Below are positions 2,045 to 20,008 of a stretch of 64,000 bases of DNA, in pieces; position 1 is the first letter of the stretch, and every line of letters begins with the position of its first letter. Origin of the DNA: Geodermatophilaceae bacterium NBWT11 (GTDB lineage: Bacteria; Actinomycetota; Actinomycetes; Mycobacteriales; Geodermatophilaceae); assembly GCA_014218215.1 (NCBI GenBank), contig CP043652.1, positions 3,286,001-3,350,000 on the forward strand, read 5' to 3'. The notes under the pieces were generated by a model, which did no database searches, was not told where the DNA came from, and saw only the letters and a program-made list of their open reading frames with translations. Made by a program: the position numbers and the translations under genes.

Positions 2045-2075
2045 CACGTGGTCCCGTCGTCGGTCTGGGCAGTGT

Positions 2076-2423
2076 TCAGCAGCCCGCGGCCGGGAGGCCA
2101 GTGGGCGCTGTGAACAGGGCGGGCTGGTCCACAAGAGGGCGCCCACGCGAGGCGGATGGCTGTTGAGCGGTGGTCGGGGGAGTGTCCAGGCGGCGGACGA
2201 AGCGCTCGAGCTCAGCCCGGGTGATCCGGCAGCTGCGGCCGATGTGCACCGGACGCAGCCGACCCTCCTTCATGAGGGCGTAGACCGTGGTGCGCCCGAT
2301 GCAGAGGACGTCGGCCGCTTCCTCCGCGGTCAGCAGCAACCTCTCGCCGCTCACGTCGACCGACCGTTCGGGATCTGGGTGCACGGCGTCCTCCTCGTTC
2401 GGCAGTTGCTCCGTGTTCGGCAA
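2076..2423 (-). CDS. excisionase-like MerR/HTH_17 DNA-binding protein
   Basis: The 115-residue protein contains a small winged-helix domain at about residues 28-80. Its motif pattern is LTAEEAADVL, then GRTTVYALMKEGRL, then a conserved RI-T--ELERFV, as in the excisionase/HTH_17 family. It lies 31 bp upstream of the integrase on the same strand, the usual xis-int order, and probably biases recombination towards excision. The acidic N-terminus and the Pro/Gln-rich C-terminus are not conserved features that I recognise. The GC-rich stretch 2424-2711 upstream contains no gene that I can support. Confidence 0.85.
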   Translation of the reverse strand: MPNTEQLPNEEDAVHPDPERSVDVSGERLLLTAEEAADVLCIGRTTVYALMKEGRLRPVHIGRSCRITRAELERFVRRLDTPPTTAQQPSASRGRPLVDQPALFTAPTGLPAAGC

Positions 2424-3599: not shown

Positions 3600-5348
3600 C
3601 TACGGCTGAGGATGCGTCTGCAGCGGCAGCTGCAGGTACGACGCCCGGTCCCCGCCGGTGTGGATGACGTGCTGACCGGCGTTGGCCGGCTCGTACTCCC
3701 GGATGCCGGGCATCAGGGTGCCGAGGAGGTTCTTGCCGCTGACGACGAACCGCAGCTGCTGGCCGGCGGTGAACGACAGGCCCAGCGGCATGAGGTCGAT
3801 CTGGACGTCGACGACCTCTCCAGCGGACAGCTTCTCGACCCGGTCGAAGGTGTGCGCCGGGACGTCCTCGGTGGACAGCTCGGCGTCCAGGTGGCGGGCG
3901 GAGACCCGCAGCCGTCCGTCGGACCCCTTGTACTTCAGGATCGTGGCGCCGTGGTCGGTGAGGTCGTGGGCCATCGCGCTCTGGTTGGGCACGGTGAACG
4001 CCTGCAGCGGGGTGCCGTGCGCATCGAGCTTCTGCACCAGCACGAACAGGTCCAGGTCGTCGCTGCCGCGGGCCTCGACCCACAGGTGGGCCTTGGGGTA
4101 GCCGACCAGCACGGTGTCCTCGGCGAACCGGTGTAGGAAGGAGACTGCAGCCGGGTTGCCGGTGGACAGGTACCCGGCCTCGGCGGCGTCGGCCGGGGCC
4201 GTCGTGGAGAGGCTGCGGGTGCGGGCGTCGAGGAAGAACTTCGTGTTCGTGACGTCGGCGGGCGGGAACTCCGAAGCCGGCACGCCCACCTGGTCGCCGC
4301 CCTGCAGGTCCAGCACGGAGTAGCGCACCCGCGGGGTCTGCTCCCAGTCGTTGTCGACGCCCTTGAGGTACCGGTCGAAGAACCGGCGCAGGTCCTCGAC
4401 GTTGGCCTCGTCGTAGTAGTCGGGCCACTCCTGGGTGTTGTGCACGCGCAGCCACCTGTCGGCCGAGGCCATCCGGCGCCAGGCGCGGAAGGTGCCGGCG
4501 GTGTGCAGGGTGTTGGAGTAGCTGGCCACCACGTAGGCGGGCACGGTGATCTGGTCGAACGCCGGGACCTTCTCGGCCCACAGCTCGTCGAACAGCGGGT
4601 GCGCCTCGACCTCGCCGAGGATGTCCTCCTTCTGGTTCTTGCCGAAGAAGCTGCCGTCCTGAAGCTGCTGGGCGAACCCGGTGTCGGGCATGCCGCCGCG
4701 CAGCACCAGGTCGCGGTAGACGTCGCTGACGCCCTCCCACGGGTTGATCGCAACCAGGTGCGGGGGCTGCTCAGCAGCGGTGAACCACTGAGCGACGGCG
4801 AGGTAGGAGGTGCCGCTCATGCCGACCTTGCCGTCGCACCACTCCTGCTCGGCCAGCCACTCGACCAGGTCGTAGCAGTCGAGGCCCTCCTGGCGGTCCC
4901 AGAGCACGCTGTCGCCTTCGGAGTCCACCACCCCGCGGATGTCGGGGTTGCAGATCGCGTAGCCCTGCGCGCACCAGTAGGCCGGGTCCGGGGCCTCGAA
5001 CTTCTCCAGGCCGGACACTGCGCTGTTCTGCAGGCCCACCAGGCCGAAGACGCCCATCACGCTGACCGAGGTGCCCTGGCCCTTGCCGTACGGGCTCCAG
5101 CACACGATCACCGGCACCGGCTCGGTGGTCACCGGGCGGAAGACGTCGACGTGGATGGTCACGCCGTCCCGCAGCTGGACGGCGACGTCCTTCTCGAACA
5201 CGACGTCCACCGGCAGCGGTTTGAACATGGGCGCGACCTGGTAGCCGGCTTCCAGCGTGCGGGTGCCCGGCTCGAAGGCGGTCAGCAGGCCGGTGCGCGG
5301 CGGCGGAAGCGGGCTGGAGGGGACGTAGGTCTTCAGGTCGGTGCTCAT
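3600..5348 (-). CDS. CocE/NonD-family hydrolase (alpha/beta hydrolase, S15-like)
   Basis: The 582-residue protein belongs to the X-Pro dipeptidyl-peptidase S15/CocE family of serine hydrolases, which cleave esters (cocaine esterase) or peptides. The nucleophile elbow is MSGTSYLAVAQW with Ser181 as the likely nucleophile, and the oxyanion region is PYGKG near residue 87. The C-terminal half carries the jelly-roll domain typical of the family. No signal peptide is seen, so it acts in the cytoplasm. The ATG at 5348 overlaps the stop of the FAH gene as ATGA, so the two are translationally coupled. It is the last gene of the operon. Hydrolysis of an ester or amide in an aromatic substrate or intermediate is inference from context. 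Confidence 0.88.
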   Translation of the reverse strand: MSTDLKTYVPSSPLPPPRTGLLTAFEPGTRTLEAGYQVAPMFKPLPVDVVFEKDVAVQLRDGVTIHVDVFRPVTTEPVPVIVCWSPYGKGQGTSVSVMGVFGLVGLQNSAVSGLEKFEAPDPAYWCAQGYAICNPDIRGVVDSEGDSVLWDRQEGLDCYDLVEWLAEQEWCDGKVGMSGTSYLAVAQWFTAAEQPPHLVAINPWEGVSDVYRDLVLRGGMPDTGFAQQLQDGSFFGKNQKEDILGEVEAHPLFDELWAEKVPAFDQITVPAYVVASYSNTLHTAGTFRAWRRMASADRWLRVHNTQEWPDYYDEANVEDLRRFFDRYLKGVDNDWEQTPRVRYSVLDLQGGDQVGVPASEFPPADVTNTKFFLDARTRSLSTTAPADAAEAGYLSTGNPAAVSFLHRFAEDTVLVGYPKAHLWVEARGSDDLDLFVLVQKLDAHGTPLQAFTVPNQSAMAHDLTDHGATILKYKGSDGRLRVSARHLDAELSTEDVPAHTFDRVEKLSAGEVVDVQIDLMPLGLSFTAGQQLRFVVSGKNLLGTLMPGIREYEPANAGQHVIHTGGDRASYLQLPLQTHPQP

Positions 5349-6223
5349 CGTCGGGCTCCTCGGGCGGCGGTGGCGGTGGTGGTGCGGTGGTCGTTGGCGA
5401 CGACGGGGTTGGTGAGCACGCCGAGGCGCTCCACCTCGACCTCGACGACGTCGCCGGGGTGCAGCAGCCAGGGGGGCGTTCGGGCGTAGCCGACGCCGGA
5501 CGGCGTGCCGGTGGCCAGCAGGTCGCCGGGGTGCAGCGTCAGGGTGTGCGAGACCAGGGACAGGACGTCGCCGACGGTGTAGGCCATCTCGGCGGTGCTG
5601 CCGTCCTGCACGGTCTGCCCGTTGACCCGGGTCTGCACGTGCAGGCCGTCGCGCAGGTCGCCGACCTCGGCGGCGGGCACCAGCGGACCCAGCGGCCCCG
5701 AGGCGTCGCCGTTCTTGCCCAGGATCCACTGGCTGGTCAGCTTCTGCGCCCGCCGCGAGGTCAGGTCGTTGAACGTGGAGTAGCCGACGACGCCGGCCAG
5801 CGCCTGCTCCGGGGTCGCGTCGACCAGGGTGGCGCCGACGTAGGCCACGACTTCGCCCTCCCAGTCCACGCCGTCCTCGTTGGCCGGCACGGGCACCGGT
5901 GCGCCGCTGACGGACAGGGACGCCGTCCAGCGAGCGAACAGTGACGGGTAGGGCGGCAGGTCCTCGTTCGCGAACGAGCCTTCCGCGACGTGCTTGAGGT
6001 AGTTCAGCCCGATGCACAGCACCCGGGCGCCGGGCAGCACCGGCGGCACCTGGACGACGTCCGCCAGCGGCAACGCGGGGCCGTCGGGGGTACGGGCGAG
6101 CCACGCGGGGGCGTCGGCCCAGAACTCCTCCAGCCCGGTCAGCACGGTGACGTGCTCGCCGTCGGGGGACAGGCCGGCGACCTCGACCGGTCCGCCGTCG
6201 CGACGGATGCCGACCATCGCCAT
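5345..6223 (-). CDS. fumarylacetoacetate hydrolase (FAH) family enzyme
   Basis: The 292-residue protein has an N-terminal FAH_N-like segment and a catalytic FAH fold from about residue 65. Visible motifs are GLNYLKH, the metal-site DWEGEVVAYVG, GYSTFNDLTSRR and LATGTPSGVG. Family members use a divalent metal to cleave carbon-carbon bonds in acylpyruvate-like intermediates, or act as hydratases or decarboxylases in aromatic catabolism. The start codon overlaps the stop of the DUF3500 gene as TGATG. In this operon it is the best candidate for the final carbon-carbon cleavage step. Confidence 0.92.
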   Translation of the reverse strand: MAMVGIRRDGGPVEVAGLSPDGEHVTVLTGLEEFWADAPAWLARTPDGPALPLADVVQVPPVLPGARVLCIGLNYLKHVAEGSFANEDLPPYPSLFARWTASLSVSGAPVPVPANEDGVDWEGEVVAYVGATLVDATPEQALAGVVGYSTFNDLTSRRAQKLTSQWILGKNGDASGPLGPLVPAAEVGDLRDGLHVQTRVNGQTVQDGSTAEMAYTVGDVLSLVSHTLTLHPGDLLATGTPSGVGYARTPPWLLHPGDVVEVEVERLGVLTNPVVANDHRTTTATAARGARR

Positions 6224-7338
6224 CAGTGCGGCCCTCCGTGGGGGGTGTCCAGGTGGTGCTGCAGGAGCAGGTCGTCGGCGAAGTCGTGCGAGGGGGACCG
6301 CCAGACGCTATGCACGTGGTTGGCGTCGTCCTCGGCGTTGTCGAACTCCACCAGCGTCGCCCCGCCCTGGATGCGGAAGTAGTGCGGCTGGTCGATCGTC
6401 AGCCCGCCGGCCCAGGCGAACCGGAGCTCCTCGACACCACCGGCGGCGGCGATCCGGTCCATCTCGACGTCGACCAGGCCCGGGCGGGCGCGGTGCACGA
6501 AGAGGGCCAGCAGCTCGTCGAACCCGGCGCGCTGGGTGGCCGACAGGTCCCCGACCCGCACCCCGCGGGGGTGGTCGCGGAAGTAGGCCAGCGCCCGCCG
6601 GTCCTCGTCGGTGATCATCGCGTCGCGGCGGCCGACCCCGTGGTGGGCGGGGTACTCGACCTCGCCGATGCGGGCGACGGTGCGGGTGACGAAGTCCGCC
6701 GGCGGCTTGGTGTGGATGACGGCCTCCCCGCGCTGGGCGCCGGTGAGGGAGTCCAGCAGCACGAAAGCTGCGTCCTCCTCCTCGCCCAGGATCCGGAACG
6801 GCCCGATGCGGGCAGGCTCGGCGCCCATCAGGAACGGGGTGGCGGTGAGCAGGTCGCCGTCGACGACGGTCACGTTCAGCGACAGGTGGTGCCCGACCAG
6901 CCGCCAGCCCCAGGTGGAGTCCGGCTGGGGCTGCCCGAAGAAGGAGAGGAAGTAGCCGCGGGCGTCGCGAAAGGTGGCCGCGACGTGGCCGAACACCGGC
7001 AGGTTGAGCTCACGCAGCACGTGCTCGTTGCTCATCACCTGCACGACCCGGGCGTAGGCCGGCAGCGACATCGACTCGGCGATCAGCCGGTGGGCCAGCA
7101 CCTCCTGCGCGCGGGTCAGCTCACCCAGGGCCAGGCCGTGCCGGCCGGACTCGGGGAGGAAGTTCCAGTGCGTGCGGCCGGCATCGGTGTGCGGCAGCAG
7201 CACCTGGGCGCGCTGGTCGCCGTCGAGGGAGTCGAACAGGCCCATCGCGGCGAAGGTGACCACGGTGGCGTCGAAGGACCCGCCCTGTCGTGGCTGGTGC
7301 TCGGCCGGCAGCTCGGGCAGGTGCGGCAGCTCGGTCAC
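6223..7338 (-). CDS. DUF3500 family protein
   Basis: The 371-residue product matches the DUF3500 family along its length. It has VMSNEHVLRELN, a GWRLVGHHLSLN segment and the characteristic C-terminal pattern PHYFRIQG, then VEFDN and ANHVHSVWR. The function of the family is not established. The conserved His, Glu and Asp residues near the C-terminus could form an active or metal site, which is inference. The start is GTG, and the stop of the upstream cupin gene overlaps it as GTGA. Being coupled inside a catabolic operon suggests an enzymatic or binding role in that pathway. Confidence 0.85.
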   Translation of the reverse strand: MTELPHLPELPAEHQPRQGGSFDATVVTFAAMGLFDSLDGDQRAQVLLPHTDAGRTHWNFLPESGRHGLALGELTRAQEVLAHRLIAESMSLPAYARVVQVMSNEHVLRELNLPVFGHVAATFRDARGYFLSFFGQPQPDSTWGWRLVGHHLSLNVTVVDGDLLTATPFLMGAEPARIGPFRILGEEEDAAFVLLDSLTGAQRGEAVIHTKPPADFVTRTVARIGEVEYPAHHGVGRRDAMITDEDRRALAYFRDHPRGVRVGDLSATQRAGFDELLALFVHRARPGLVDVEMDRIAAAGGVEELRFAWAGGLTIDQPHYFRIQGGATLVEFDNAEDDANHVHSVWRSPSHDFADDLLLQHHLDTPHGGPH

Positions 7339-7679
7339 GACGCGACCGGCCGGATGACGAGCATGCTGGCCGGCAGCTGGCTGCGGTTGACCACTGCGCG
7401 CTCGGTACCGGGGGTGAAGTGCACGGAGTCGTAGGGCCGCAGCACGGCCTCCTCGCCGTCGGCGATCATCGTCAGCTCTCCGCTGACCAGCACGTACACG
7501 GTCTCGACCGGCTGCGGGGACAGTGCGGCCTCGCCGCCTGGCAGGTAGTGCGACAGGACGACGGTCACCGTCTCGGTCGGGGTGTCGGTGCCGCCCTGCA
7601 ACCGCAGCGGGCCGACGCCGGTGTGCCCGGGCGGGGAGAACGCCTCGGCGTCGGTCAGTCGGGTGATGCGCATGCCCAT
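7335..7679 (-). CDS. small cupin-domain protein
   Basis: The 114-residue protein is a single cupin barrel: SHYLPGGEAALSPQPVETVYVLVSGEL for the first motif region, followed by DSVHFTPGTERAVVN for the second. The usual metal-binding HxH of motif 1 is replaced (SPQPVE), so metal binding is uncertain and a binding or isomerase role is as likely as dioxygenation. It overlaps DUF3500 by four bases and lies four bases after the flavin reductase stop. Confidence 0.85.
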   Translation of the reverse strand: MGMRITRLTDAEAFSPPGHTGVGPLRLQGGTDTPTETVTVVLSHYLPGGEAALSPQPVETVYVLVSGELTMIADGEEAVLRPYDSVHFTPGTERAVVNRSQLPASMLVIRPVAS

Positions 7680-7683
7680 CGGG

Positions 7684-8832
7684 TCAGTGCTCCTTCGTCG
7701 GGAGGGTCGCGGTGGTGGTGGCGACCTGGGTGAGCCGGTCGATCCAGGCGCCGATCCGCACGGTGCTGGCCGCCGGTGGCAAGCCAGTCATCCGCAGCGC
7801 CAGCGGCGGCTGACCGGGCCCGGTCAGGACCGGGACGACGATGTTGGCCAGGTCGTAGAGCGTGCCCGGGTGCAGGTCGGGGCAGAACAGGTCGGCCAGC
7901 TCGGACGTCGCGGCCGCGACGGCGCGCTCGTGCCGGGGCAGCCGGTCGGAGGCCTCAAAGGAGTCCAGGGCCTGGCGGTGGCGGCGGTGGGTCTCGGCGT
8001 CGGCCAGCAGCATCGAGTGGCCGCGCTCCCGGACCCGTTCCAGGTGGGCGTGGCCCACCCCGGTGCCCGGGCCCCGGGCCAGCCACTCGTCGACCTCGGT
8101 GTCGGGCGCCCCAGCGAAGAACACGGCGCCGAAGGGCGGGATGAGCGGCTGACGGTGGCCCAGCGGGAACGCCTCGTCCACCGCACTGCGGTTGGCGGCC
8201 AGCACCTGGACGGCGTCCCAGCCGACCCGGGCCACCACGCTGCAGTTCACCCCCAGCTCGGCGCTGAGCGCCTCGACGGCCGGCCGGATGCCCTCGGCCA
8301 GCTGGGCGGCGGCGATCAGTTCGGGGTCGGGGGTCGCGACGAACGAGCCGGGGGCGAAGCGGCCGTAGCCGCCCTGGAAGAACAGCAGCGGCAGGGTGGA
8401 GCGCTCGACGGCCAGGGACTGCACCCGTCCCAGGACGACGAGGTGGTCACCGGCGGGCCGGACGTCCTCGAACGAGCACTCGACCCAGGAGACGGACCCG
8501 GTCAGCACCGGGGAGCCCAACGGGCCCGGTCGCCAGTCGACGCCGGCGAACTTGTCGGCCCCGCCGGTGGCCAGCTGCCGGCACAGGCCCTCCTGGTCGG
8601 CGGCCAGCACGTTGACGCAGAACGCCGGGGCGCTGCGCACCCGGTCGAAGCTGTAGGAGCCGGCCGTGGGGTAGAAGGCGATCAGCGGTGGGTCCAGGGA
8701 CACCGAGGAGAAGGTGCCCACGACCATGCCGGCCGGCTGCCCGTCGTCGGCGATCGCGGTGACCGCCGCGACGCCGGTCGGGTAGTGGCCGAGGGTCTCC
8801 CGGAACAGCGCCGGGTCGATGGCCAGCGTCAT
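7684..8832 (-). CDS. flavin reductase fused to an IclR-type effector domain
   Basis: Residues 1-165 form a RutF-like FMN reductase domain (HYPTGVAAVTAI, GTFSSVSLDPPLIAF, FCVNVLA). Such proteins supply reduced flavin to two-component monooxygenases. Residues from about 185 to 370 match the ligand-binding domain of IclR regulators: PLGHRQPLIPPFGAVFFAG, a DTEVDEWLARG segment and RERGHSMLLAD. There is no helix-turn-helix. The likely logic is substrate-controlled flavin reduction, as known for the MarR-like C-terminal domain of the 4-hydroxyphenylacetate hydroxylase reductase of Acinetobacter; its use here is inference. The ATG at 8832 overlaps the MhpA-like gene by four bases. The partner oxygenase is probably encoded at 11378-12667. 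Confidence 0.88.
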   Translation of the reverse strand: MTLAIDPALFRETLGHYPTGVAAVTAIADDGQPAGMVVGTFSSVSLDPPLIAFYPTAGSYSFDRVRSAPAFCVNVLAADQEGLCRQLATGGADKFAGVDWRPGPLGSPVLTGSVSWVECSFEDVRPAGDHLVVLGRVQSLAVERSTLPLLFFQGGYGRFAPGSFVATPDPELIAAAQLAEGIRPAVEALSAELGVNCSVVARVGWDAVQVLAANRSAVDEAFPLGHRQPLIPPFGAVFFAGAPDTEVDEWLARGPGTGVGHAHLERVRERGHSMLLADAETHRRHRQALDSFEASDRLPRHERAVAAATSELADLFCPDLHPGTLYDLANIVVPVLTGPGQPPLALRMTGLPPAASTVRIGAWIDRLTQVATTTATLPTKEH

Positions 8833-10379
8833 CGCCCGGCCACCGTGAGCGCGACGCGCAGCTGGGTGAGCAGGGCGGGGACGTCGGCAGCGACGCCGAC
8901 GCCGAAGACGTAGAAGTCCGGCCGGGCGAGGACGACGTCGCAGTCGTGCGCGTCGAACCAGGCCCCGTACGCGCCGTCGACATCGACGACGGGACCGGCG
9001 GGGGAGACGGCGGTGACCGTGCCGCCGAGGCCGGCGAACCAGGCCGCGGTGTCGTCGTCCAGCTCGGGCGTGGTGGCCCGGCCGATCAGCTGCCAGTCGC
9101 CGCCGACGATGTCGTCGAACAGGCTGGTGACGCCATCCACCCGGACCCGGGCCTGCGGGGCGAGCCGGCCAGCGGCGTCCTGGCCGGGGACGGTGATCGA
9201 GGGGTGCCCCAGCCGGGGGTGCGGCGGCTCCTTGGTGTCGCTGGGGTCGGCCAGTGCCCGGCGCATCTCGGCGTCCCGGGCCGCGGCGCGGGCGGGGTCG
9301 AGCTCGCAGATGACCCGGCCGGCGGCGACGGCCTCGTCGATGATCTCCCGCACGTGGCCGGCGCGTTCGGGGCCGTAGCTGTCCAGCACGGCCGGGTCGG
9401 CCAGCCCGCGGTGCACCAGCGCCAGCCGCCAGGCCAGCGCCCGGGCGTCCCGCAGCCCGGCGCACAGGCCCTGGCCCATGAACGGCGGCATGAGGTGCGC
9501 GGCGTCCCCGGCCAGGAAGGTGCGGCCGACCCGCCAGGTCTGCGCCCAACGGCCACGGAAGGTGTAGACGGCGTGCCGCTCCAGCTCGGCGGTCTCGGGG
9601 GTGACGCCGAAGGGGGCCATCAGCGCCCAGGCGGTCGACTCCTGGCCCAGCTGCTCGGGAGTGACGTCGTCCCGGCGCATGAACTCGAACCGCCGACGGC
9701 CGGGGCCGCTCTTCACCGCGGTGGCCGGCTGCCGGGGGTCGCAGTGCTGCACGACGAAGGCGTCCCACTCCTGCTCGACCAGCGGCCGGTAGTCCACCAC
9801 CAGCCAGTCGGCCTCGAATCCGGAGTCGCCGACCTCGATGCCCAGGTGCGTGCGGACGGCGCTGTTGGCCCCGTCGGCGCCGATCACCCAACGGCTGCGC
9901 ACGCTCACCGGGTGCTCACCGGTCAGCAGCGTGGTCGCGCCGTCGTCGTCCTGGTCGGTCGAGGCAAACGACCAGCCGCGGTGCACGGTCACCCCGGGGG
10001 TGGTGACGGCGAGGTCCTCCAGCACCGCCTCCAGGGAGGGTTGGTGGAAGCCGTTGGTGTTGGCCCAGCCGGACTCGGCGGGCCGGTTCCAGTCGATGGC
10101 CATGAGCAGTTCGCCCTCGCCGTTGCGGAACTGGTAGCCACCGCGCGCACCGACCGAGGGTTCGAACAGGTCGGCGTGGTCGGCCATGACGCCGGCGGCC
10201 TGCAGGATGCGCAGCGCCTCGTGGTCGATGGTGCAGGCGCGGGGGAGCGGGTATCGCTCCGGCCAGCGCTCAACGACGGCGACCTGCAGCCCGGCCCGGC
10301 CGAGCAGGATGCCGGTGAGGAGCCCGACGGGGCCGCCGCCGACGACGAGGACGTCGACGTCGGTGGGGGGTGCACTCAC
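8829..10379 (-). CDS. FAD-dependent aromatic monooxygenase (MhpA-like)
   Basis: The 516-residue class A flavoprotein monooxygenase has the N-terminal dinucleotide motif VVGGGPVGLLTGILLGRAG, the DG motif VIGADGANSAVR and the FAD-phosphate motif GRTFLAGDAAHLMPPFMGQG, followed by a thioredoxin-like C-terminal domain. The sequence resembles 3-(3-hydroxyphenyl)propionate hydroxylases (MhpA), which ortho-hydroxylate phenolic rings using NAD(P)H and oxygen. The start is GTG at 10379 (GTGA overlap with the upstream stop). It is a self-sufficient hydroxylase, so the operon has two independent ring-oxygenation activities. The exact substrate is unknown. Confidence 0.92.
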   Translation of the reverse strand: MSAPPTDVDVLVVGGGPVGLLTGILLGRAGLQVAVVERWPERYPLPRACTIDHEALRILQAAGVMADHADLFEPSVGARGGYQFRNGEGELLMAIDWNRPAESGWANTNGFHQPSLEAVLEDLAVTTPGVTVHRGWSFASTDQDDDGATTLLTGEHPVSVRSRWVIGADGANSAVRTHLGIEVGDSGFEADWLVVDYRPLVEQEWDAFVVQHCDPRQPATAVKSGPGRRRFEFMRRDDVTPEQLGQESTAWALMAPFGVTPETAELERHAVYTFRGRWAQTWRVGRTFLAGDAAHLMPPFMGQGLCAGLRDARALAWRLALVHRGLADPAVLDSYGPERAGHVREIIDEAVAAGRVICELDPARAAARDAEMRRALADPSDTKEPPHPRLGHPSITVPGQDAAGRLAPQARVRVDGVTSLFDDIVGGDWQLIGRATTPELDDDTAAWFAGLGGTVTAVSPAGPVVDVDGAYGAWFDAHDCDVVLARPDFYVFGVGVAADVPALLTQLRVALTVAGR

Positions 10380-11371
10380 GGTCGGCTCCTGCCGGTCAGG
10401 TGGGGGTTGGGGAGGACGACGCACTTGGCATGCGGCGAGTCGGCCTGCTGCTGCCACGCGGCGGGCAGCTCGTCGAGGTCGAAGGTGCGGGTGGGCACCT
10501 GCAGGCCGTCCGTGAGCGCGGCCCACAGCCAGGTCAGTGCCGGGGCCTTGGCGGCGAGACCGAGGTGCAGGCCGGCGAAGCCGGTGAGGGTGAGCTGCCT
10601 GCCGCGCAGCAGGCCCGCGGGGATCTCGGCGGTCGGTCCGGCGAGGTTGCCGATGTTCACGATCCTGGCGCGCGGTGCGCAGGCCAGGAGAGCAGCCTCC
10701 AGCGGGGTCCCATACACGCCGTCCAGGACGACGTCGAAGGGCCCGCCCAACCGGGCGGCCATGTCGTCGCGGCTCTCCCCGGGGAGGAGCTCGACGACGG
10801 CGTCGGCGCCGAGCTCCTGGACCCGGTGGAGAGCGGTGGTGCTGCGCCCCACGCCGACCACCCGCCCGGCGCCCAGGCGCCGGGCGATCTGGACGGCGAG
10901 CTGGCCGACGGCGCCGGTGGCACCCAGCACGAGCACGGCCTCCCGGGGCTGCAGCCGGGCCTCGGTGACCAGCGGCAGGTAGGCGGCGGTGCCCGAGTTG
11001 CCGACCGCGGCGGCCAGCACGGGGTCCACCCCGTCGGGGAGGGGGAGGACGTCGTCGTCGGGCACCAGCACCTGGGTGGCCAGCGATCCCGGGGTCGACG
11101 GCGAGGCGTGCACCTCGGCATACACCCGGGTGCCTGGCGCGTGACGGTCGGACTCGACGACGACGCCGACGCACTCGCTGCCCGGGACGTAGGGCTGCTC
11201 GTGCCGGGCGGAGTGGAACCCGCCGGAGGCGATGAGCAGGTCCAGCGGGTTCAGCGGTGCGGCGAGCACCTCGAGCAGCGTCGTCCCGGCCCGGCGCGGG
11301 GGAAGCATCAGCGGTCCCACCCGGGGCGGTGCCCCCGGGGCGTCGATCGTCGCTGCTCGAGGTGCACCCAC
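10376..11371 (-). CDS. MDR-superfamily quinone oxidoreductase-like protein
   Basis: The 331-residue medium-chain reductase has a GroES-like N-terminal half (NPLDLLIASG, YVPGSECVGVV) and a Rossmann domain with VLGATGAVGQLAVQIARRLGAGRVVGVGR. The cysteine and histidine ligands of the catalytic zinc are absent, as in NADPH:quinone oxidoreductases. It could reduce a quinone formed by the hydroxylases or an enone intermediate. It starts with GTG six bases after the preceding gene and overlaps the following gene by four bases. Confidence 0.87.
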   Translation of the reverse strand: MGAPRAATIDAPGAPPRVGPLMLPPRRAGTTLLEVLAAPLNPLDLLIASGGFHSARHEQPYVPGSECVGVVVESDRHAPGTRVYAEVHASPSTPGSLATQVLVPDDDVLPLPDGVDPVLAAAVGNSGTAAYLPLVTEARLQPREAVLVLGATGAVGQLAVQIARRLGAGRVVGVGRSTTALHRVQELGADAVVELLPGESRDDMAARLGGPFDVVLDGVYGTPLEAALLACAPRARIVNIGNLAGPTAEIPAGLLRGRQLTLTGFAGLHLGLAAKAPALTWLWAALTDGLQVPTRTFDLDELPAAWQQQADSPHAKCVVLPNPHLTGRSRP

Positions 11372-11377
11372 GTCGGC

Positions 11378-12667
11378 TCAGCCGGCCTTCTGCACCGGCG
11401 CGGGGGCGAACCGGTCCAGGGTGGTGATGCCGGCGAAGGCGTGCGGCTGGATGCCGGCCATCAGGCGGCCGTAGTTCTCCGACAGCGCCTCGAGGTTCAG
11501 GGCACCGTGCAGGGTGATGATCCGGGCGTCGCGCCACGAACGCTGGATGGGCTCGAAGTCCATGATCGCGGTGGAGCCGGAGTTGCGCTGCAGCAGCTCG
11601 ATCGCCTCGGCGCACCACTTGGCGGCGTAGGCGGTCTCGGCCAGCACCCGGGCGCTGAAGTGCTGCATGTACTCCGGGCTCTCCGGGGTGCCGGCCGCGT
11701 TCAGCCGGCCGAGGCGGTCGGTCTCCTCGGCGTTGGCCCGGGCCATCAGCTCGGCCGAGCGGATCTTGCTGTGCACCTCGGTGAGCATCAGGTGGGTCAG
11801 CGGCGCCTCGAGCTGGTTCTTGTACGTGGTGCCGCGGATCGGCCGGCCGGCCGAGCGCTCGACGAAGCGGTCCAGGGCGCCCCGGGCGATGCCGATGCTC
11901 ATGCCGGCCATCAGGCTGAACGCCCAGCCCAGCGACGGCACCTTCCACAGCGACCCGGCCAGGCCGTGGTCGATGCTCTGGGAGGTGACCAGGCGGAAGT
12001 CGGTGACCCGGTGGTCGGGGACGAAGAGCTCGTCGCCGGGCAGCTCGATGGAGACGCTGCCGGTGGCGCGCATGCCGGCGACGTTCCAGTCGTCGAGGAA
12101 CCGCAGCTGGTCGCGGGGGACCTGGACGCCGACCAGGTACTTCCCGTCACCGTCGTCGGCGATGCAGCCCAGGTTGGTGTAGGGCGCCCAGAGGGCGTCG
12201 CTGCCGAACGTCCACGGGCCGCCGGTGATGAGCCACCCACCCTCGGTGCGGGTGGCGCGGCCCTTGGAGGCGGGGAAGTGGCTGGAGCCGGCGACGCGCG
12301 GGCCGACCCAGTCGTGCCCGTAGACCTCCTCGACCACCTGCGGGCCGCAGCCGGCCGGCAGCCAGTTGGTGGAGGCGGCCACCCACACGGTCCACCCGGC
12401 CGAGCCGTCGTACTCAGCGACGGTGCTGACGACGTCCAGCTGCTGGCGGACGGTCAGCTCGTCGCCGCCGTACTCCGCGGGGCTGGCGATGGCGAAGACC
12501 CCGGCCGCGTCGAGGGCGGCGATGGTCTCGTCGGAGTGCCGGCCGGCCTTCTCCGCGGCCAGGGCGCCGGCCCGCAGCGCCGGGCCGAACTCGCGCACCT
12601 GCTCGAGGATCTGGGCCAGGCGCGCGGGCTTGTCTGCCGCTGTCGGGGCGTCGAGGGTGAGGGTCAC
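11378..12667 (-). CDS. acyl-CoA-dehydrogenase-fold flavin monooxygenase (group D, HsaA/HpaB-type)
   Basis: The 429-residue protein has the acyl-CoA dehydrogenase fold. It lacks the catalytic Glu motif and carries the oxygenase-type C-terminus PIQRSWRDARIITLHGALN, as in HsaA and other two-component hydroxylases. These oxidise phenolic rings with reduced flavin supplied by a separate reductase. The reductase gene three cistrons downstream fits as its partner. The start is GTG at 12667 inside the stop of the upstream hydrolase gene (GTGA). The N-terminal LAQILEQVREFGPALR segment is the usual helical bundle. The substrate is probably phenolic. Confidence 0.88.
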   Translation of the reverse strand: MTLTLDAPTAADKPARLAQILEQVREFGPALRAGALAAEKAGRHSDETIAALDAAGVFAIASPAEYGGDELTVRQQLDVVSTVAEYDGSAGWTVWVAASTNWLPAGCGPQVVEEVYGHDWVGPRVAGSSHFPASKGRATRTEGGWLITGGPWTFGSDALWAPYTNLGCIADDGDGKYLVGVQVPRDQLRFLDDWNVAGMRATGSVSIELPGDELFVPDHRVTDFRLVTSQSIDHGLAGSLWKVPSLGWAFSLMAGMSIGIARGALDRFVERSAGRPIRGTTYKNQLEAPLTHLMLTEVHSKIRSAELMARANAEETDRLGRLNAAGTPESPEYMQHFSARVLAETAYAAKWCAEAIELLQRNSGSTAIMDFEPIQRSWRDARIITLHGALNLEALSENYGRLMAGIQPHAFAGITTLDRFAPAPVQKAG

Positions 12668-14868
12668 TGGGTGTCTCCGGAGGTCGCGGGGATGACGGGC
12701 AGCTGCACGTAGCTGGGGTGGTCGGGCCCCGTGTAGACCGTGTTGCGGGCGCCGGCGTGGTAGCTCTCGTCGTACTCGCGGACCGGGATGCCGGACGGGG
12801 TGTAGGGCTGGACGTCGATGCGCAGCCGGGAGCCGGCCCGGACCAGCGCGGTGCTGGGGTAGAGCCCGACCTCGACGAAGACCGGCTCGCCGGGCTCCAG
12901 CGGCTGGGCATCGGCCTCGGCGTGCGAGGGCACGGGCCAGTAGTCGGTGGTCCGCTCGGGGTCCAGGGCGCGGCGGGAGACCTTGAGCGGGCCGTGCCCG
13001 ACCGGGTGGACGTGGTTGGGGTCGATCGGCAGGACGACGGACTCGTAGCGGACCTCGCGGTCGTGGGCGTCGATCACCCGCAGCGACACGAACACGTCCA
13101 TGTCGGTGCTGGTGGAGGACACCCACAGCCCGGCCTTCATGTAGCCGGCCAAGGTGAGGTCCTCCATCAGCGGGTCGCTGATGAAGGAGACCCCGGTGGA
13201 CCAGCGGGGGGTGCCGCCGACGTAGCCGATCGGGGCCGGGATGGGCATGCCCAGGTCCAGGTCGGCGGCGTAATCCGCGCTCGTCTCCGCGGTCGGGACC
13301 TCCTCGACGATCCGCAGCAGGTCGGTGCGGTTGGCGTCGCCGGTCCAGTCGGTGGGGCTCGCGTCGAGGTACCAGCGCCGGTACTGGGTGCGGGCGATCG
13401 GCCACTCCTGCTCGTGCAGCACCAGGTGCGTGCCGTTGCCGGCCCGGACCTGCACCCGCACGGGCGGGGCGTCCATGACGCCGTTGTCGGTGCCCTTGAG
13501 CCAGTGGTCGAAGAACGCCTGGTGGTCGGCGATCGAGGACTGCTTGTAGCTGCCCGGGAACCAGGCGTCGACGAAGTCGAAGCGCTTGGCCTCAGCACCC
13601 GTGGAGTGGATGTAGGTCTCGCTGCTGCCCAGCTGGTGGATGGTGACGCCGGTCTGCGGGCCGACGACCCAGACCGGCGCGGTGGCCTTCTCCAGCTCCG
13701 GGCGCATGAAGATCGTGCCCTGCGGGCCGTAGGCGGCCGGGTCGTTGAACGGCGTCGCGCGGAGCTGGGCCATCCAGTCGGTCTGGGGGCGCTCGGTGCC
13801 GACGAAGTTGTGCCCGGACATGGTCTTCCACCACCAGTCCCAGAAGCCGATCCCGAACAGGCCGCCGCCGTAGGTGGCCTCGTTGTAGAGGTCGGCGTCG
13901 GTGCCGATGGCGACCATGGCCTTCAGGTGCGGGGGCTGGAGGCTGGCGACCATGTGCTGGGTCATGGCCAGGTAGGACATGCCCCAGAGGCCCACGTTGC
14001 CGTTGGACCAGAGCTGGGTGCCGGCCCACTCGATCGCGTCGTAGTAGTCCTCGGACTGCTGCACGCTGAAGGGGGCCTGCCGGCCGGGGCTGCGGCCGAC
14101 GCCGCGGCTGTCGACCCGGATGCACACGTAGCCCTCGGGCACCCAGACCGCGGAGTCGACGCTCTCGTGGTTCTCGTACTGCTGGCCGCGCGAGTTGCCG
14201 GAGAAGAAGAGGTCCTCCAGCACCTCCTTGGCCTGCGCCTGCTCGTCGTCGCCGATGCAGTCGTGGTCGAAGGCCTTGCCGTAGAAGCCCTTGTTCAGGA
14301 TCACCGGGTACGCGCCGTCCGCGGCGGGACGGAAGACGTCGGCGTAGACGAAGGAGCCGTCGCGCAGCGGGATCTGCACGTCGGTGGTCTTGACGATGCC
14401 GCGCAGCTCGCGGCGCAGCTGGTTGCGGGCGGCCTCGGGGGAGCGGAGCGCCCGGTCCAGGGTGTCCAGCAGCCCGGTGACGACGGCGTCGGCAGCAAAG
14501 GCGGCCTCGGGCTGTTCGAACGCGATGAACCGTGCCTGGACCAGGTCGTGCACCTCGGGGGCGATGGTGACGCCGGACTCGACGTCGCCGTCGGCGTCCA
14601 GGGTCTGCACCAGCCGGGCCAGGTTGGTCACGGCGGGGTCGTGCAGCTTGTCGATGCGGCCGTCGACCCGGTGCACCAGGTGGGCGAGGGTGACGACGTC
14701 CGCACCGGGTGCTGTGCCGAGCACGACGTCACCCAGCAGGAAGGACACGACCTCGCCCTCGGCGAACTCGAACCGGCCGCGCTCGTCGGTGACCCCGCTG
14801 CAGGTGGCGGTCTGGAACTTAAGGCCGGCGGTGGGGCCGGCGAGCACTCCGGTGCGGACGTCGGCCAC
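12664..14868 (-). CDS. CocE/NonD-family hydrolase with an extra N-terminal domain
   Basis: The 734-residue protein has a 160-residue N-terminal extension containing a small beta-sandwich-like repeat (AGLKFQTATCSGVTDERGRFEF) and a helical stretch. An S15/CocE hydrolase follows, with nucleophile motif LWGMSYLAMTQ (Ser298) and a C-terminal jelly-roll. It is much longer than the 582-residue paralogue at the other end of the operon. The two share only family-level similarity, so they may act on different bonds. The start is GTG at 14868, two bases after the SnoaL-like gene. No signal peptide is visible. An ester or amide substrate is inferred from the family. Confidence 0.87.
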   Translation of the reverse strand: MADVRTGVLAGPTAGLKFQTATCSGVTDERGRFEFAEGEVVSFLLGDVVLGTAPGADVVTLAHLVHRVDGRIDKLHDPAVTNLARLVQTLDADGDVESGVTIAPEVHDLVQARFIAFEQPEAAFAADAVVTGLLDTLDRALRSPEAARNQLRRELRGIVKTTDVQIPLRDGSFVYADVFRPAADGAYPVILNKGFYGKAFDHDCIGDDEQAQAKEVLEDLFFSGNSRGQQYENHESVDSAVWVPEGYVCIRVDSRGVGRSPGRQAPFSVQQSEDYYDAIEWAGTQLWSNGNVGLWGMSYLAMTQHMVASLQPPHLKAMVAIGTDADLYNEATYGGGLFGIGFWDWWWKTMSGHNFVGTERPQTDWMAQLRATPFNDPAAYGPQGTIFMRPELEKATAPVWVVGPQTGVTIHQLGSSETYIHSTGAEAKRFDFVDAWFPGSYKQSSIADHQAFFDHWLKGTDNGVMDAPPVRVQVRAGNGTHLVLHEQEWPIARTQYRRWYLDASPTDWTGDANRTDLLRIVEEVPTAETSADYAADLDLGMPIPAPIGYVGGTPRWSTGVSFISDPLMEDLTLAGYMKAGLWVSSTSTDMDVFVSLRVIDAHDREVRYESVVLPIDPNHVHPVGHGPLKVSRRALDPERTTDYWPVPSHAEADAQPLEPGEPVFVEVGLYPSTALVRAGSRLRIDVQPYTPSGIPVREYDESYHAGARNTVYTGPDHPSYVQLPVIPATSGDTQ

Positions 14869-14870
14869 GG

Positions 14871-15395
14871 CTACTTGCCCCGGACCGCGGTGAGGTAGGC
14901 GACCTTGCCGGCCTCGGCGTGCTCCTTGAGCACGTTGAGCTGCATGTCGGGGCGGTGCTCGGCGTTGGGCACGGGCACGAAGGGGTTGCCGGTCCAGCCC
15001 TGCAGGCGGCAGACCCGGTGCTTGATCCGCCAGCCGTCCGCGGTACGCACGAGCTCGTCGTCGTACCAGCCGGTGCCGGTCCAGGTGGCGCCGTCCTCGG
15101 CGTCGTTGCGGATGAGCAGCCAGTTGCCGTAGGCGAAGGCGTTGGCGGTGTCGCCGTCGACGTGGACCAGCTGGCCCATCATCGTGTGCTGGTGGCTGTC
15201 CAGGGTGGCGTGGAACTCGGCGAAGGAGCGCTTGAACTCCTCCAGGCCCACCCAGGCGTTGCCTGCGGGGCCGAACTCGGCCACCACGTCCTCGGCGAAG
15301 ACCTGGTCGAACAGGTCCCAGGCGTGCGCGTCGAGGGCGAACCCGTACAGGTTCAACAACTGGATGATCGCGGTCTTGTCGTCGTGGTCAGCCAC
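14871..15395 (-). CDS. SnoaL-like (NTF2-fold) protein
   Basis: The 174-residue protein has the NTF2/SnoaL fold pattern: a helical start DKTAIIQLLNLYGFALDAHAWDLF, then ADGWRIKHRVCRLQGWTGNP. Members include small dehydratases, isomerases and hydroxylase beta-like subunits acting on ring compounds. It is the first gene of the leftward operon and starts with GTG at 15395. A promoter with TTGACA lies about 55 bp upstream. A role in isomerising or dehydrating a ring intermediate is inference. Confidence 0.83.
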   Translation of the reverse strand: MADHDDKTAIIQLLNLYGFALDAHAWDLFDQVFAEDVVAEFGPAGNAWVGLEEFKRSFAEFHATLDSHQHTMMGQLVHVDGDTANAFAYGNWLLIRNDAEDGATWTGTGWYDDELVRTADGWRIKHRVCRLQGWTGNPFVPVPNAEHRPDMQLNVLKEHAEAGKVAYLTAVRGK

Positions 15396-15478: not shown

Positions 15479-15531
15479 GCACCACTCCCCGGAGAATTTC
15501 TGGGGCGCTGACGAGAGCTGAGGGGATGTCC

Positions 15532-16218
15532 GTGAGCGAGGCGACCGAGCCACGCATCTCGCTGAACGAGGCCGCCTACCAGCGGCTGCGGGCCGAGATC
15601 ATCGCCTGCCGGCTCGCCCCCGGGCAGCGCCTGACGGAGAAGGGGCTGGCCGCCGACTTCGGGTTCAGCTTCGCCCCGCTGCGCGATGCGCTGACCCGGC
15701 TGGACCACGAGGGCCTGATCCGCACGGTGCCGCGGCGGGGCTACCAGGTGGCGCCGTTGACGCCCAAGTCGATCGACGACCTGTTCGTGCTGTGGGAGAT
15801 CGTCGGGCCCGAGCTGATCCGGCTGGGGTTGCAGCGCGCCACCGAGGAGCAGATCGCCGACGCCCGAGCGGCGTTCGACGACCTGGACCGAACGTCGGCG
15901 GCCCAGGACATCGATGTCGTCACCGGGACCTTCACCGCGCTGGCCGAGGCGACCGGGAACAGCTACATGATCGCGCTGCACCAGCGGCTCATGGGCGACA
16001 TGAGCCGCATCCGGGCGCTGCGCCTCACCTCCGCCGAACCCGCCGACTCCGTGCCCACCCAGCACTGGGTTCGCGAGGTGCTCGTCGAGCGCGATCCGGA
16101 CCGCGCCGCCGAGCACGCGCGGCGCCACATCCGCGAGGTGCACCAGGCCGTGCTCCAAGCCGTCGTCCGCTGGCCGTCGGTCATGACCAGCGAGGTCAGC
16201 GTCGGCTCACCTCGCTGA
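15532..16218 (+). CDS. GntR-family transcriptional regulator (FCD-type)
   Basis: The N-terminal winged helix spans about residues 10-75 (AYQRLRAEIIACRLAPGQRLTEKGLAADFG, then APLRDALTRLDHEGLI), followed by an all-helical ligand-binding domain of the FadR/FCD class (DLFVLWEIVGPELIRLG). It is divergent from the ten-gene operon and is probably its effector-controlled repressor. I prefer the GTG at 15532, six bases after GAGGGG, over the ATG at 15526, which would sit directly on the ribosome-binding sequence. The C-terminal region (HWVREVLVERDPDRAAEHARRHI) is the typical last helix pair of FCD domains. Confidence 0.9.
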   Translation: MSEATEPRISLNEAAYQRLRAEIIACRLAPGQRLTEKGLAADFGFSFAPLRDALTRLDHEGLIRTVPRRGYQVAPLTPKSIDDLFVLWEIVGPELIRLGLQRATEEQIADARAAFDDLDRTSAAQDIDVVTGTFTALAEATGNSYMIALHQRLMGDMSRIRALRLTSAEPADSVPTQHWVREVLVERDPDRAAEHARRHIREVHQAVLQAVVRWPSVMTSEVSVGSPR

Positions 16219-16369: not shown

Positions 16370-17080
16370 TCACGTCCGGGCCCGGACCTGGATGCCGGCG
16401 AGGAGCAGGTCGAGTCCGGAGCGGAAGACGTCCTCGTCGTCGTGGGCGGCGAACTCGTCGGCGACGTGGTGGGCGAAGGGGTACTCGTCGGGGTCGAGGG
16501 CCCGCCACCGGTCGGCGTACATCGCCAGGAACTCCGTGGGTTCCAGGCCGCTGTCGAGGAACTCCGGGGGTGGTGGCTGCGCCATGTCCGCCGCCACCCC
16601 GACCACGTAGCTCACCAGTGACGACACGGCGTGGAACCGCTGTCTGGGCGTGAGGTCCAGGCGCATCACCTGCTGTCCCAGCCGGTCGAACATCGACATC
16701 GAGTTCGGTTGCAGTCCGGTGTTGCGGAGCATGTAGGAGCCGAACCACGGCCGCCGGCGCATCTCCTCGAACAGGGCGAGGGAGAGCGCCCGCAGGTTCT
16801 CCACCGGGTCCGGCCCCGTACCGAGGTCCGCTGAATCGTCGAGCAGGCGACCCATGATCTGGTCGGTGGCCCGGTCCAGCAGCTCATCGCGGCTGGCCAC
16901 GTACCAGTAGATGCTGGCCACGCCACCGCCCAGGCGGGTCGCGAGCGCCCGGAAGGTCAGGGCTGGCTCGCCGCCCTCGTCGAGGAGGGCGATGGCCTCG
17001 GCCAGCACGGCGTCCAGGGAGTGGGTCACCCGGCGACGCGACCCGCGTGACCGGGCGGGTCCAGCTGTGGGGTCCGTCAT
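16370..17080 (-). CDS. TetR/AcrR-family repressor
   Basis: The 236-residue protein has a TetR-type helix-turn-helix at about residues 18-65 (ALTFRALATRLGGGVASIYWYVASRDELL) and a TetR_C-like helical effector domain. It is divergent from the MFS exporter gene. Three copies of a 15-bp palindrome fill the shared 81-bp region, so it very probably represses both genes and is released by a drug-like ligand or pathway compound. It lies inside the island, next to the catabolic operon but on the far side of the GntR gene. Confidence 0.9.
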   Translation of the reverse strand: MTDPTAGPARSRGSRRRVTHSLDAVLAEAIALLDEGGEPALTFRALATRLGGGVASIYWYVASRDELLDRATDQIMGRLLDDSADLGTGPDPVENLRALSLALFEEMRRRPWFGSYMLRNTGLQPNSMSMFDRLGQQVMRLDLTPRQRFHAVSSLVSYVVGVAADMAQPPPPEFLDSGLEPTEFLAMYADRWRALDPDEYPFAHHVADEFAAHDDEDVFRSGLDLLLAGIQVRART

Positions 17081-17161: not shown

Positions 17162-18619
17162 ATGGCCACCACAGACACCAGTACGAGCACCACCGCACCC
17201 ACGCACACGTCGCTGCGGGCGGCTGCTCTCCCGCTCGCCGCCCTCTGCCTCGCGTTCTTCGTCGAGATGGTCGACAACACGCTCCTGACCATCGCACTGC
17301 CGACCATCGGCCGGGACCTGGGCAGCGGCACCACCGCCCTGCAGTGGGTCACCGGGGCCTACTCCTTGACCTTCGGGGGGCTGCTGCTCACAGCCGGCTC
17401 GGCCGCCGACCGGCTGGGACGCCGACGGGTGCTGTTGACCGGGCTCGCCGCCTTCGGCGTCATCAGCCTCGCCGTCGTCTTCGTCTCCACTGCGGGGGAG
17501 CTGATCGCCCTGCGGGCCGCCCTCGGTCTGGCTGCCGCGGCGATGGCGCCAGTCACCATGTCACTGATCTTCCGGCTCTTCGACGACGAGAAGCTGCGCA
17601 TGCGCGCCATCACCGTCGTGATGATCGTCGGCATGTCCGGCTTCGTGCTCGGTCCGCTGCTGGGCGGCACCGCCCTGGCACACGTGAGCTGGACCTGGCT
17701 GCTCGTGGTCAACGCCCCGATCGCGCTCATCGCGTGGGTCGGCGTACGCCTGGGCGTGCCCGCCGACCGTCGGGAGGACCTGACCTCGGACCCGCTGGAC
17801 CTGCCCGGCGCCGTGCTCACGATCGCCGCGATCGGCCTCGGCTGCTACACCCTCACCAGCGGTGTCGAGCACGGCTGGCTGTCCCTGATCACCATCGTCT
17901 CGGCTTTGGGCGCCCTCGCCGCCGGCACCTGGTTCGTCCGGCACGAGCGCGCGACCGAGTTCCCGATGCTCGACCTGCGCCTGTTCGCCTCAGGGCCCGC
18001 CCGCGGCGCGGCCATCACGCAGATGGCCGCGTCCATCACGATGGCCAGCGTCATGTTCGGGCTGATCCTGCACTTCCAGTACGCCTACGGCTGGAGCCCG
18101 GTGCGGGCCGGCCTGGCCAACCTGCCCCTGATCATCACGATGATCGCCGCCACCCCGCTCTCCGAGTGGCTGGCGGCTCGGTTCGGCCACCGCATCGCGT
18201 GCCTGATCGGTTCCGCGCTGCTCGTGGTGTCCCTGCTGGGCATGGCATGGGGCGTCGAGCACGGCTACACCGCCATCGCAGTGGCGATGGTCGTCCTGAC
18301 CGTGGGTCTGCGCACGATCATGACGATCTGCGCCGTTGCTCTGGTCCAGGCGATGCCGGCGAACCGCACGTCCATCGGTGCTGCCCTGAACGACACCGCC
18401 CAGGAAGTCGGCTCCAGTCTGGGGACCGCCGTCGTCGGCACCATGATCGCCGCCCTGGTCACCTCCAGGCTGCCCGCCGGTGTCTGGACCTCCGACCTCG
18501 TCCACTCCTTCTTCAGCGGTGAACGGACCACCTACCTGGTGCTGGCCGGGGTCGTCTGCCTGGTCGCCACCTACGGCGCACTCACCCTCACCGACTCCCG
18601 CGCCACTGAGGACCACTGA
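17162..18619 (+). CDS. MFS drug exporter, DHA2 (EmrB/QacA) type
   Basis: The 485-residue protein has about 14 hydrophobic helices. It shows motif D1-like EMVDNTLLTIALPTIGRDL, motif A GSAADRLGRRRVLL and the motif C-like region GPLLGG in helix 5. DHA2 transporters export amphipathic drugs using the proton gradient. A GGAGG ribosome-binding sequence lies six bases before the ATG. It is regulated by the adjacent TetR gene through three operators. It may export a toxic substrate or product of the neighbouring catabolic operon, but a simple efflux role is equally possible. Confidence 0.92.
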   Translation: MATTDTSTSTTAPTHTSLRAAALPLAALCLAFFVEMVDNTLLTIALPTIGRDLGSGTTALQWVTGAYSLTFGGLLLTAGSAADRLGRRRVLLTGLAAFGVISLAVVFVSTAGELIALRAALGLAAAAMAPVTMSLIFRLFDDEKLRMRAITVVMIVGMSGFVLGPLLGGTALAHVSWTWLLVVNAPIALIAWVGVRLGVPADRREDLTSDPLDLPGAVLTIAAIGLGCYTLTSGVEHGWLSLITIVSALGALAAGTWFVRHERATEFPMLDLRLFASGPARGAAITQMAASITMASVMFGLILHFQYAYGWSPVRAGLANLPLIITMIAATPLSEWLAARFGHRIACLIGSALLVVSLLGMAWGVEHGYTAIAVAMVVLTVGLRTIMTICAVALVQAMPANRTSIGAALNDTAQEVGSSLGTAVVGTMIAALVTSRLPAGVWTSDLVHSFFSGERTTYLVLAGVVCLVATYGALTLTDSRATEDH

Positions 18620-19878: not shown

Positions 19879-20008
19879 GTGGGTGGCTCCCTCGTTAGCA
19901 AAACTTGACTGGTGCCAACTCACGCCGGTGTGAGTCGCAGGGCACTTTCGATAAGGGACAGTTCGGTGGCCAACCGAGTGTTTGGGAGAACCCTTCGGCC
20001 CGGATTGA

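Follow-up and report, generated by a model that had tools for sequence, protein, structure and literature searches.

We analysed a stretch of 64,000 nucleotides from Geodermatophilaceae bacterium NBWT11 (contig CP043652.1, positions 3,286,001 to 3,350,000), hereafter the window, which carries an operon-like array of ten genes on its reverse strand (positions 3600-15395), one of them encoding a DUF3500 protein. Pfam matches and open reading frame coordinates agree on the place, strand and order of the genes, as the original prediction had them: in the direction of transcription they encode a SnoaL_4 protein, a CocE hydrolase (CocE 1), a group D oxygenase, a quinone reductase-like enzyme, an MhpA-like hydroxylase, a flavin reductase, a cupin, the DUF3500 protein, an FAH-family hydrolase and another CocE hydrolase (CocE 2; Table 1). 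By coordinates, the nine junctions in the same direction are a gap of 2 bp, an overlap of 4, a gap of 6, two overlaps of 4, a gap of 4, and overlaps of 4, 1 and 4 bp. The Pfam families present are SnoaL_4, Peptidase_S15/PepX_C (twice, CocE type), Acyl-CoA_dh_2, ADH_zinc_N, FAD_binding_3, Flavin_Reduct, Cupin_2, DUF3500 and FAA_hydrolase; they bear out the earlier description of an operon-like array of aromatic-type enzymes with two hydroxylation systems, hydrolases and an FAH enzyme. A scan for promoter and terminator patterns gave no match on either strand.

Table 1. Genes of the array and of the adjoining region, with window positions. Percentages are identities of homologues at related loci (L numbers, from the scan of genome contigs described in the text); aa, amino acids.
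Feature	Position	Strand	Basis
SnoaL_4 (NTF2-like) protein, 174 aa, first gene	14871..15395	-	Pfam E 3e-28; homologues 67-72% in L061, L065, L066
CocE/NonD serine hydrolase 1, 734 aa	12664..14868	-	Pfam and TIGR00976; 65-69% in L061, L064, L065
Group D two-component flavin monooxygenase, oxygenase component (HsaA/XiaF-like)	11378..12667	-	Pfam Acyl-CoA_dh_2
Quinone reductase-like NAD(P)H oxidoreductase	10376..11371	-	Pfam ADH_zinc_N; 66-70% in L061, L063, L064, L065, L066, L078
Group A FAD phenol hydroxylase (MhpA-like)	8829..10379	-	FAD_binding_3 E 5e-64; passes NF004829 cut-off
Flavin reductase with C-terminal extension	7684..8832	-	Flavin_Reduct E 2e-37; reductase domain aa 15-158
Small cupin	7335..7679	-	Cupin_2
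DUF3500 protein, proposed ring-opening enzyme	6223..7338	-	Pfam E 2.4e-73
FAH-family hydrolase, proposed acylpyruvate hydrolase	5345..6223	-	FAA_hydrolase E 8e-60
CocE/NonD serine hydrolase 2, last gene	3600..5348	-	Pfam; 74-75% in L061 and L065
Divergent GntR/FCD regulator	about 15526..16218	+	Pfam GntR and FCD; start from codon-usage caller; 130 bp between the two starts
TetR regulator	16370..17080	-	Pfam
MFS transporter	17162..18619	+	Pfam MFS_1

The group D oxygenase and the flavin reductase are of the type seen in HsaAB and in p-hydroxyphenylacetate 3-hydroxylase. Unlike HsaAB, the window proteins score under the respective family cut-offs (NF045629 for HsaA: E 1.4e-47, 162 bits against 450; NF045630: 174 bits against 230) and their operon is without an extradiol enzyme. 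The solved proteins in the PDB that lie closest to the oxygenase are XiaF (5lvu, E 2e-33) and the 3-HSA hydroxylase (2rfq, E 3e-32). The sixth gene had been called a fusion of a flavin reductase and an IclR-type part: Pfam supports the reductase and sees that domain only, and the IclR effector-like part is weak, with residues 173-253 matching the PcaR/PcaU/PobR family model at E 6.6e-4 and 19 bits where the cut-off is 285. The protein is kept at full length and 61-65% identity in L064 and L078, and a 72% identical piece lies at the end of the L066 locus. As for the MhpA-like hydroxylase, its subfamily score likens it to the Mhp hydroxyphenylpropionate pathway, and homologues 67-71% identical occur in L061, L063, L064, L065, L066 and L078. 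Mhp/Hpp clusters carry an extradiol dioxygenase, whereas the window operon does not. The quinone reductase-like enzyme may reduce the quinone formed by the hydroxylase, and the SnoaL_4 protein possibly handles a lactone or a tautomer. The starting substrate may be an ester or amide, as the CocE family of the two hydrolases would suggest. CocE 1 carries an N-terminal extension of ~165 aa ahead of its hydrolase domain that has no Pfam match.

None of the ten Pfam-annotated genes encodes a classical ring-cleavage dioxygenase, so the original prediction was right that no such enzyme is recognisable in the operon. The cupin, too, is without a metal motif. Cupins bind metal through HxH...E plus a second-motif histidine; the HxH is absent from all eight aligned sequences (the window protein and seven others), one of which, L037, has a single histidine there, and the second-motif position is arginine in all eight (R94 in the window protein). 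With these ligands missing, the cupin was rejected as the ring-cleavage dioxygenase. Its sole NCBIfam match, under the cut-off, is NF050094, named beta-D-galactosidase, which is an odd name for a cupin.

A lead to the missing enzyme comes from fungi; here we take IPR021889 to be DUF3500. In the accessible part of a review, the A. nidulans DUF3500 protein AN10530 is proposed as a putative dioxygenase that turns 1,2,3,5-tetrahydroxybenzene into 5-hydroxydienelactone, within a fungal gallate pathway (PMC12388069). The accessible part of FAMeDB, a 2026 database paper, lists IPR021889 as 'open-ring' in the tetrahydroxybenzene pathway, so far fungal, with the entry printed DUF3550 (PMC13094099). Because DUF3500 is the proposed ring opener of the fungal 1,2,3,5-tetrahydroxybenzene pathway, the missing ring-opening enzyme of the operon is, by analogy, probably its DUF3500 protein. 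The array had been thought to match no known pathway, which no longer holds given its resemblance to the fungal one as far as these sources describe it (PMC12388069, PMC13094099); the view that its context is a clue to DUF3500 is supported. On the same partial evidence, DUF3500 belongs in both systems to an aromatic pathway for which no classical dioxygenase is known, and a dienelactone as product agrees with the presence of dienelactone hydrolase genes in the bacterial relatives described below. The primary fungal paper (Martins 2024) is said to report that DUF3500 clusters with a monooxygenase gene, an FAH-like gene and one for a short protein; taking that make-up, DUF3500, FAD monooxygenase and FAH-like genes are all in the window operon and recur in its relatives. 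The operon differs in being bacterial and in adding the two-component group D oxygenase, the quinone reductase-like enzyme, the CocE hydrolases, SnoaL and the cupin. No report of ring opening by a bacterial DUF3500 protein was found in the literature searched, which left most subscription papers outside.

We propose that the array is a horizontally acquired catabolic operon in which a phenolic ring is opened by DUF3500, not by a classical dioxygenase. The genes, their order, their recurrence and the conserved residues are read from sequence, and from these we infer every reaction; we consider the whole route about equally likely to be right or wrong. An MFS carrier would import the substrate and a CocE hydrolase would take off its ester or amide group. 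The ring would be hydroxylated first by the group D oxygenase with the flavin reductase and next by the MhpA-like hydroxylase, paired with the quinone reductase-like enzyme, to a polyhydroxybenzene, most simply 1,2,3,5-tetrahydroxybenzene. Intradiol opening by DUF3500 would give dihydroxymuconate or, via loss of water, its lactone hydroxydienelactone. Next, a hydrolase, which would be CocE here and dienelactone hydrolase in relatives, would yield 2,4-dioxoadipate (an acylpyruvate, in its enol form), SnoaL and the cupin perhaps assisting, and the FAH enzyme as acylpyruvate hydrolase would split this acid into pyruvate and malonate. A family III CoA-transferase would then activate the malonate; four relatives encode it within the cluster, and this genome 0.33 Mb from the operon. 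The steps from ring opening to pyruvate and malonate were worked out from formulae. We suggest more tentatively, as a possibility we somewhat doubt, that bacteria own a tetrahydroxybenzene-type central pathway, with a DUF3500 ring opener whose fold is unlike that of solved dioxygenases, varied upper pathways, and FAH and CoA-transferase enzymes leading to pyruvate and malonyl-CoA. Its upper pathways would comprise group D and group A hydroxylases here, and P450, HpaB or salicylate-hydroxylase-like enzymes in relatives.

The DUF3500 protein itself is a firm family member, scoring 247.7 bits against PF12006 where the gathering score is 27.2. To find relatives, genome contigs were scanned with peptide patterns around WGWR-GHH and HYYR, and the best 80 of 585 loci were kept. 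There were 105 usable DUF3500 stretches, of which 103 were aligned (all but L115 and L136); 101 plus the window protein then made up an alignment of 102 sequences. Residues H150, H151, R322, E331, H341, H343 and D352 are invariant in these 102, as are W143, W309 and some glycines and prolines; when two plasmid sequences were added (104 rows), R322 was no longer invariant and the named histidines, E331 and D352 still were. H150, H151 and R322 owe part of their invariance to selection, since they lie in the peptide patterns that found most loci, while E331, H341, H343 and D352 lie outside them. An AlphaFold model built on the 102-sequence alignment has a mean local confidence (pLDDT) of 92.4 and a predicted template modelling score (pTM) of 0.90; a shallower model (7 sequences, pLDDT 71) was set aside in its favour. 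The only significant PDB match is 9x86 (Amc20), a member of the same family (E 5e-42) that is 31% identical; Foldseek finds it at E 6.4e-20, with a TM score of 0.90 when scaled to the target and 0.63 when scaled to the query length, the next match being at E 0.23. By this model, the DUF3500 fold is distinct among solved structures.

Searching for the same gene set elsewhere, as had been suggested, was successful: five loci in other bacteria each bring together seven, eight or nine of the ten gene types, and none of the related operons found has an assigned pathway. Nine are present in Actinomadura (L061), in a metagenome-assembled genome labelled Chloroflexi (L064) and in Streptomyces (L065), eight in another Streptomyces (L066) and seven in Rhodococcus sp. 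G-MC3 (L078); a Streptomyces locus at a contig end (L063) has four. Except for L078, the DUF3500 proteins of these six loci are 80-83% identical to that of the window and the other operon proteins 50-79%. In L064 the gene order is shuffled, with genes on two strands, and of the six loci just L061 and L065 showed CocE 2. For the relatives, gene starts were called by a simple codon-usage method, which performed poorly on L064 and L078; for these two we took stop-to-stop frames. Pfam was run on chosen genes of the relatives. Further loci share less of the set. A Blastococcus locus (L062) has DUF3500 (82%) with a cupin, FAH (55%), SnoaL, a BD-FAE esterase, a GntR/FCD regulator, an FAD monooxygenase and two P450 genes, which would be the same core as in the window under a different upper pathway with other oxygenases. 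Two Streptomyces loci (L072 and L075) carry dienelactone hydrolase, FAD monooxygenase, DUF4440, FAH, RidA and DUF3500. L070 has the first five of these with two DUF3500 genes upstream, and additionally HpaB, a flavin reductase and an HpaI-like aldolase; homologous genes of these three loci are 54-76% identical to each other. In Prauserella (L068), dienelactone hydrolase, flavin reductase, FAH and two DUF3500 genes accompany a protein of the acyl-CoA-dehydrogenase fold that is 29% like the group D oxygenase, and on a Rhodococcus plasmid DUF3500, cupin and FAH stand together.

For the lower part of the route, we propose from its sequence that the FAH enzyme is an acylpyruvate hydrolase. Its best NCBIfam match, at 138 bits where the cut-off is 500, is 2,4-didehydro-3-deoxy-L-rhamnonate hydrolase, an enzyme of 2,4-dioxo acids, and it has an HxxE dyad (H78/E81), the metal motif DWEGE and an ND motif; the metal motif and the HxxE dyad have their roles in FAH enzymes of the acylpyruvate hydrolase type. 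Pfam finds no DLH-family gene in the operon, dienelactone hydrolase genes being present in L068, L070, L072 and L075, and here the CocE hydrolases could take that enzyme's place on hydroxydienelactone. A family III CoA-transferase gene lies in the L061, L065, L066 and L078 clusters. No close relative of it is found in the window, and the best match in this genome (67%; next paralogue 45%) is at 2.957 Mb, 0.33 Mb from the operon; it shares 64-70% identity with the copies in the four clusters. Its gene stands between genes for a MatC dicarboxylate carrier (PF07158, E 6e-60) and a carboxyltransferase, with a GntR/FCD gene adjoining. The NCBIfam models that score best for the CoA-transferase, none of them over its cut-off, are named for other dicarboxylate transferases. 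By gene content this locus looks like a malonate operon, and malonate as end product fits because the counterpart of the cluster CoA-transferase sits there. The surrounding region (L149, 2.949-2.966 Mb) comprises the MatC carrier, the family III CoA-transferase, a fused AccD/AccA-like carboxyltransferase and the GntR/FCD regulator.

Across the loci kept from the scan, the company of FAH depends on how close the DUF3500 protein is to that of the window. By BLAST against the operon proteins, FAH lies near DUF3500 at 13 of the 15 loci with at least 40% DUF3500 identity (6/6 close ones and 7/9 others) and at 1 of the 65 below; many loci are short contigs, and for those of at least 18 kb the counts are 10/11 and 1/31 (Fisher p 8e-8). 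The tally therefore points to an aromatic role for part of DUF3500, centred on the branch of the window protein, and not for the whole family. Many of the 65 loci below the line are labelled Verrucomicrobia, Acidobacteria, Chloroflexi or Latescibacterota.

Several observations weigh against ring opening by DUF3500 as we propose it. In the tally just given, the 40% line was set after the identities had been seen and is not sharp, and the six close loci do not count as independent; beyond the tally, FAH is near DUF3500 at 4 of 20 further loci (below 40% by BLAST) and at one of four plasmid loci, most or all of these being under 40%, and 62 of the 65 loci below the line (L076-L140) are without any other operon gene by BLAST. 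The Rhodococcus cluster L078 has a DUF3500 protein only 36% identical in place of the close one, its other six gene types being 61-77% identical, and L061 and L065 showed no flavin reductase. The strongest evidence against the proposal is 9x86, titled 'dehydratase ApmL in Amipurimycin biosynthesis'. This protein belongs to the DUF3500 family, whose GHH, E and HxH residues it retains, though in a biosynthetic setting and at 31% identity, and since a protein titled dehydratase has them too, neither these residues nor the structure prove ring opening. The amc cluster of amipurimycin is treated in PMC10698177 and PMC11188666, and no mention of ApmL was found in the accessible parts of the amipurimycin literature examined. 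Elsewhere the genome has matches to intradiol dioxygenases (at 0.92 and 1.397 Mb) and to LigB (at 1.98 and 4.59 Mb), and such enzymes could act in trans. Together with the title of 9x86 these matches favour an alternative that we judge rather unlikely, in which DUF3500 is a dehydratase, or an enzyme of hydratase/lactonase type, working before or after a ring opening that a classical intradiol or extradiol dioxygenase would carry out in trans. Against it, the gene set recurs in unrelated hosts, none of the 14 (of 15) called genes of L061 that were given an identity is a dioxygenase, and BLAST with the three intradiol and two LigB frames of this genome found no homologues in L037-L140 or the window (E 1e-3; a weak test that misses other extradiol families, which were not searched). 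The naming of DUF3500 as a putative ring opener, in the accessible part of the review, speaks against it as well (PMC12388069).

The other alternatives concern the substrate, the cupin and the purpose of the genes. The DUF3500-dependent route might act on a substituted tri- or tetrahydroxybenzene and give pyruvate and another acid instead of malonate: MhpA-like and HsaA-like hydroxylases of other pathways act on substituted phenols, and XiaF and the 3-HSA hydroxylase are the closest solved group D proteins. This seems to us distinctly unlikely, as the CoA-transferase of four clusters has its counterpart here in the malonate-looking operon, far closer than the next paralogue. The cupin family includes dioxygenases such as gentisate dioxygenase, and a cupin gene is in the operon, but with the ligand positions altered in every aligned sequence we give hardly any credence to the cupin as ring-cleavage enzyme. 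Finally, SnoaL, RdmE-like and XiaF-like enzymes occur in polyketide and terpenoid tailoring, and the weak XiaF-like and RdmE-like matches and the biosynthetic setting of 9x86 could suggest a natural-product tailoring cluster; we find this very improbable, since no synthase is among the ten genes and the recurring company of FAH, dienelactone hydrolase and CoA-transferase is catabolic.

The neighbourhood extends further than previously described, with GntR/FCD, TetR and MFS genes found by Pfam beyond the operon start. The divergent GntR/FCD protein is likely the operon regulator, the TetR protein possibly regulates the adjacent MFS gene, and the MFS transporter is a possible route of substrate uptake. 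FCD regulators adjoin related clusters too, and some of these also have MFS or TetR genes; those MFS genes that lie inside L063 and L066 are not close to the one in the window. By BLAST, the window GntR/FCD regulator matches only in L068 Prauserella (55% and 47%), L067 (32%) and L071 (26%), the MFS transporter only in L070 (29%) and the TetR regulator only in L052 (26%). On the far side of the operon, a phage-type integrase reading frame (440-2146, reverse strand) overlaps tRNA-Ala (749-823, forward strand) and resembles the edge of a genomic island. Positions 19001-22000 have a G+C fraction of 0.61-0.65 against 73% for the window and hold an AlbA_2 (Schlafen-type) reading frame (20009-21274, reverse strand), possibly another mobile segment.

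Neither DUF3500 nor the group D oxygenase was found in any of eight other genomes of the same genus. Of 112 genomes of the family, this is the sole one to have the oxygenase at E <= 1e-60, as it is among 396 genomes of a phylum sample at E <= 1e-80. DUF3500 of any kind is not rare, being present in 32 of 146 relatives (1e-15) and 16 of 296 genomes of a class sample (1e-20), this genome counted in both. With DUF3500 missing from the eight other same-genus genomes, the group D oxygenase confined to this genome within the family sample, and close homologues present in Actinomadura, Streptomyces and Blastococcus as well as on a contig labelled Chloroflexi, the distribution suggests that the operon was gained horizontally.

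To our knowledge, few families of ring-opening enzymes are known, and DUF3500 is so far only a putative one, in fungi; if our reading is true, the window operon and those related to it would bring this role to bacteria as well. The accessible part of a table for Rhodococcus qingshengii RL1 lists DUF3500, MhpA-like, MFS and FCD genes with near-consecutive tags (PMC8416521), and orphan genes such as this set would become easier to explain. The reading also predicts an unusual end product, malonate, and the operon would give a tractable bacterial system in which DUF3500 can be assayed.

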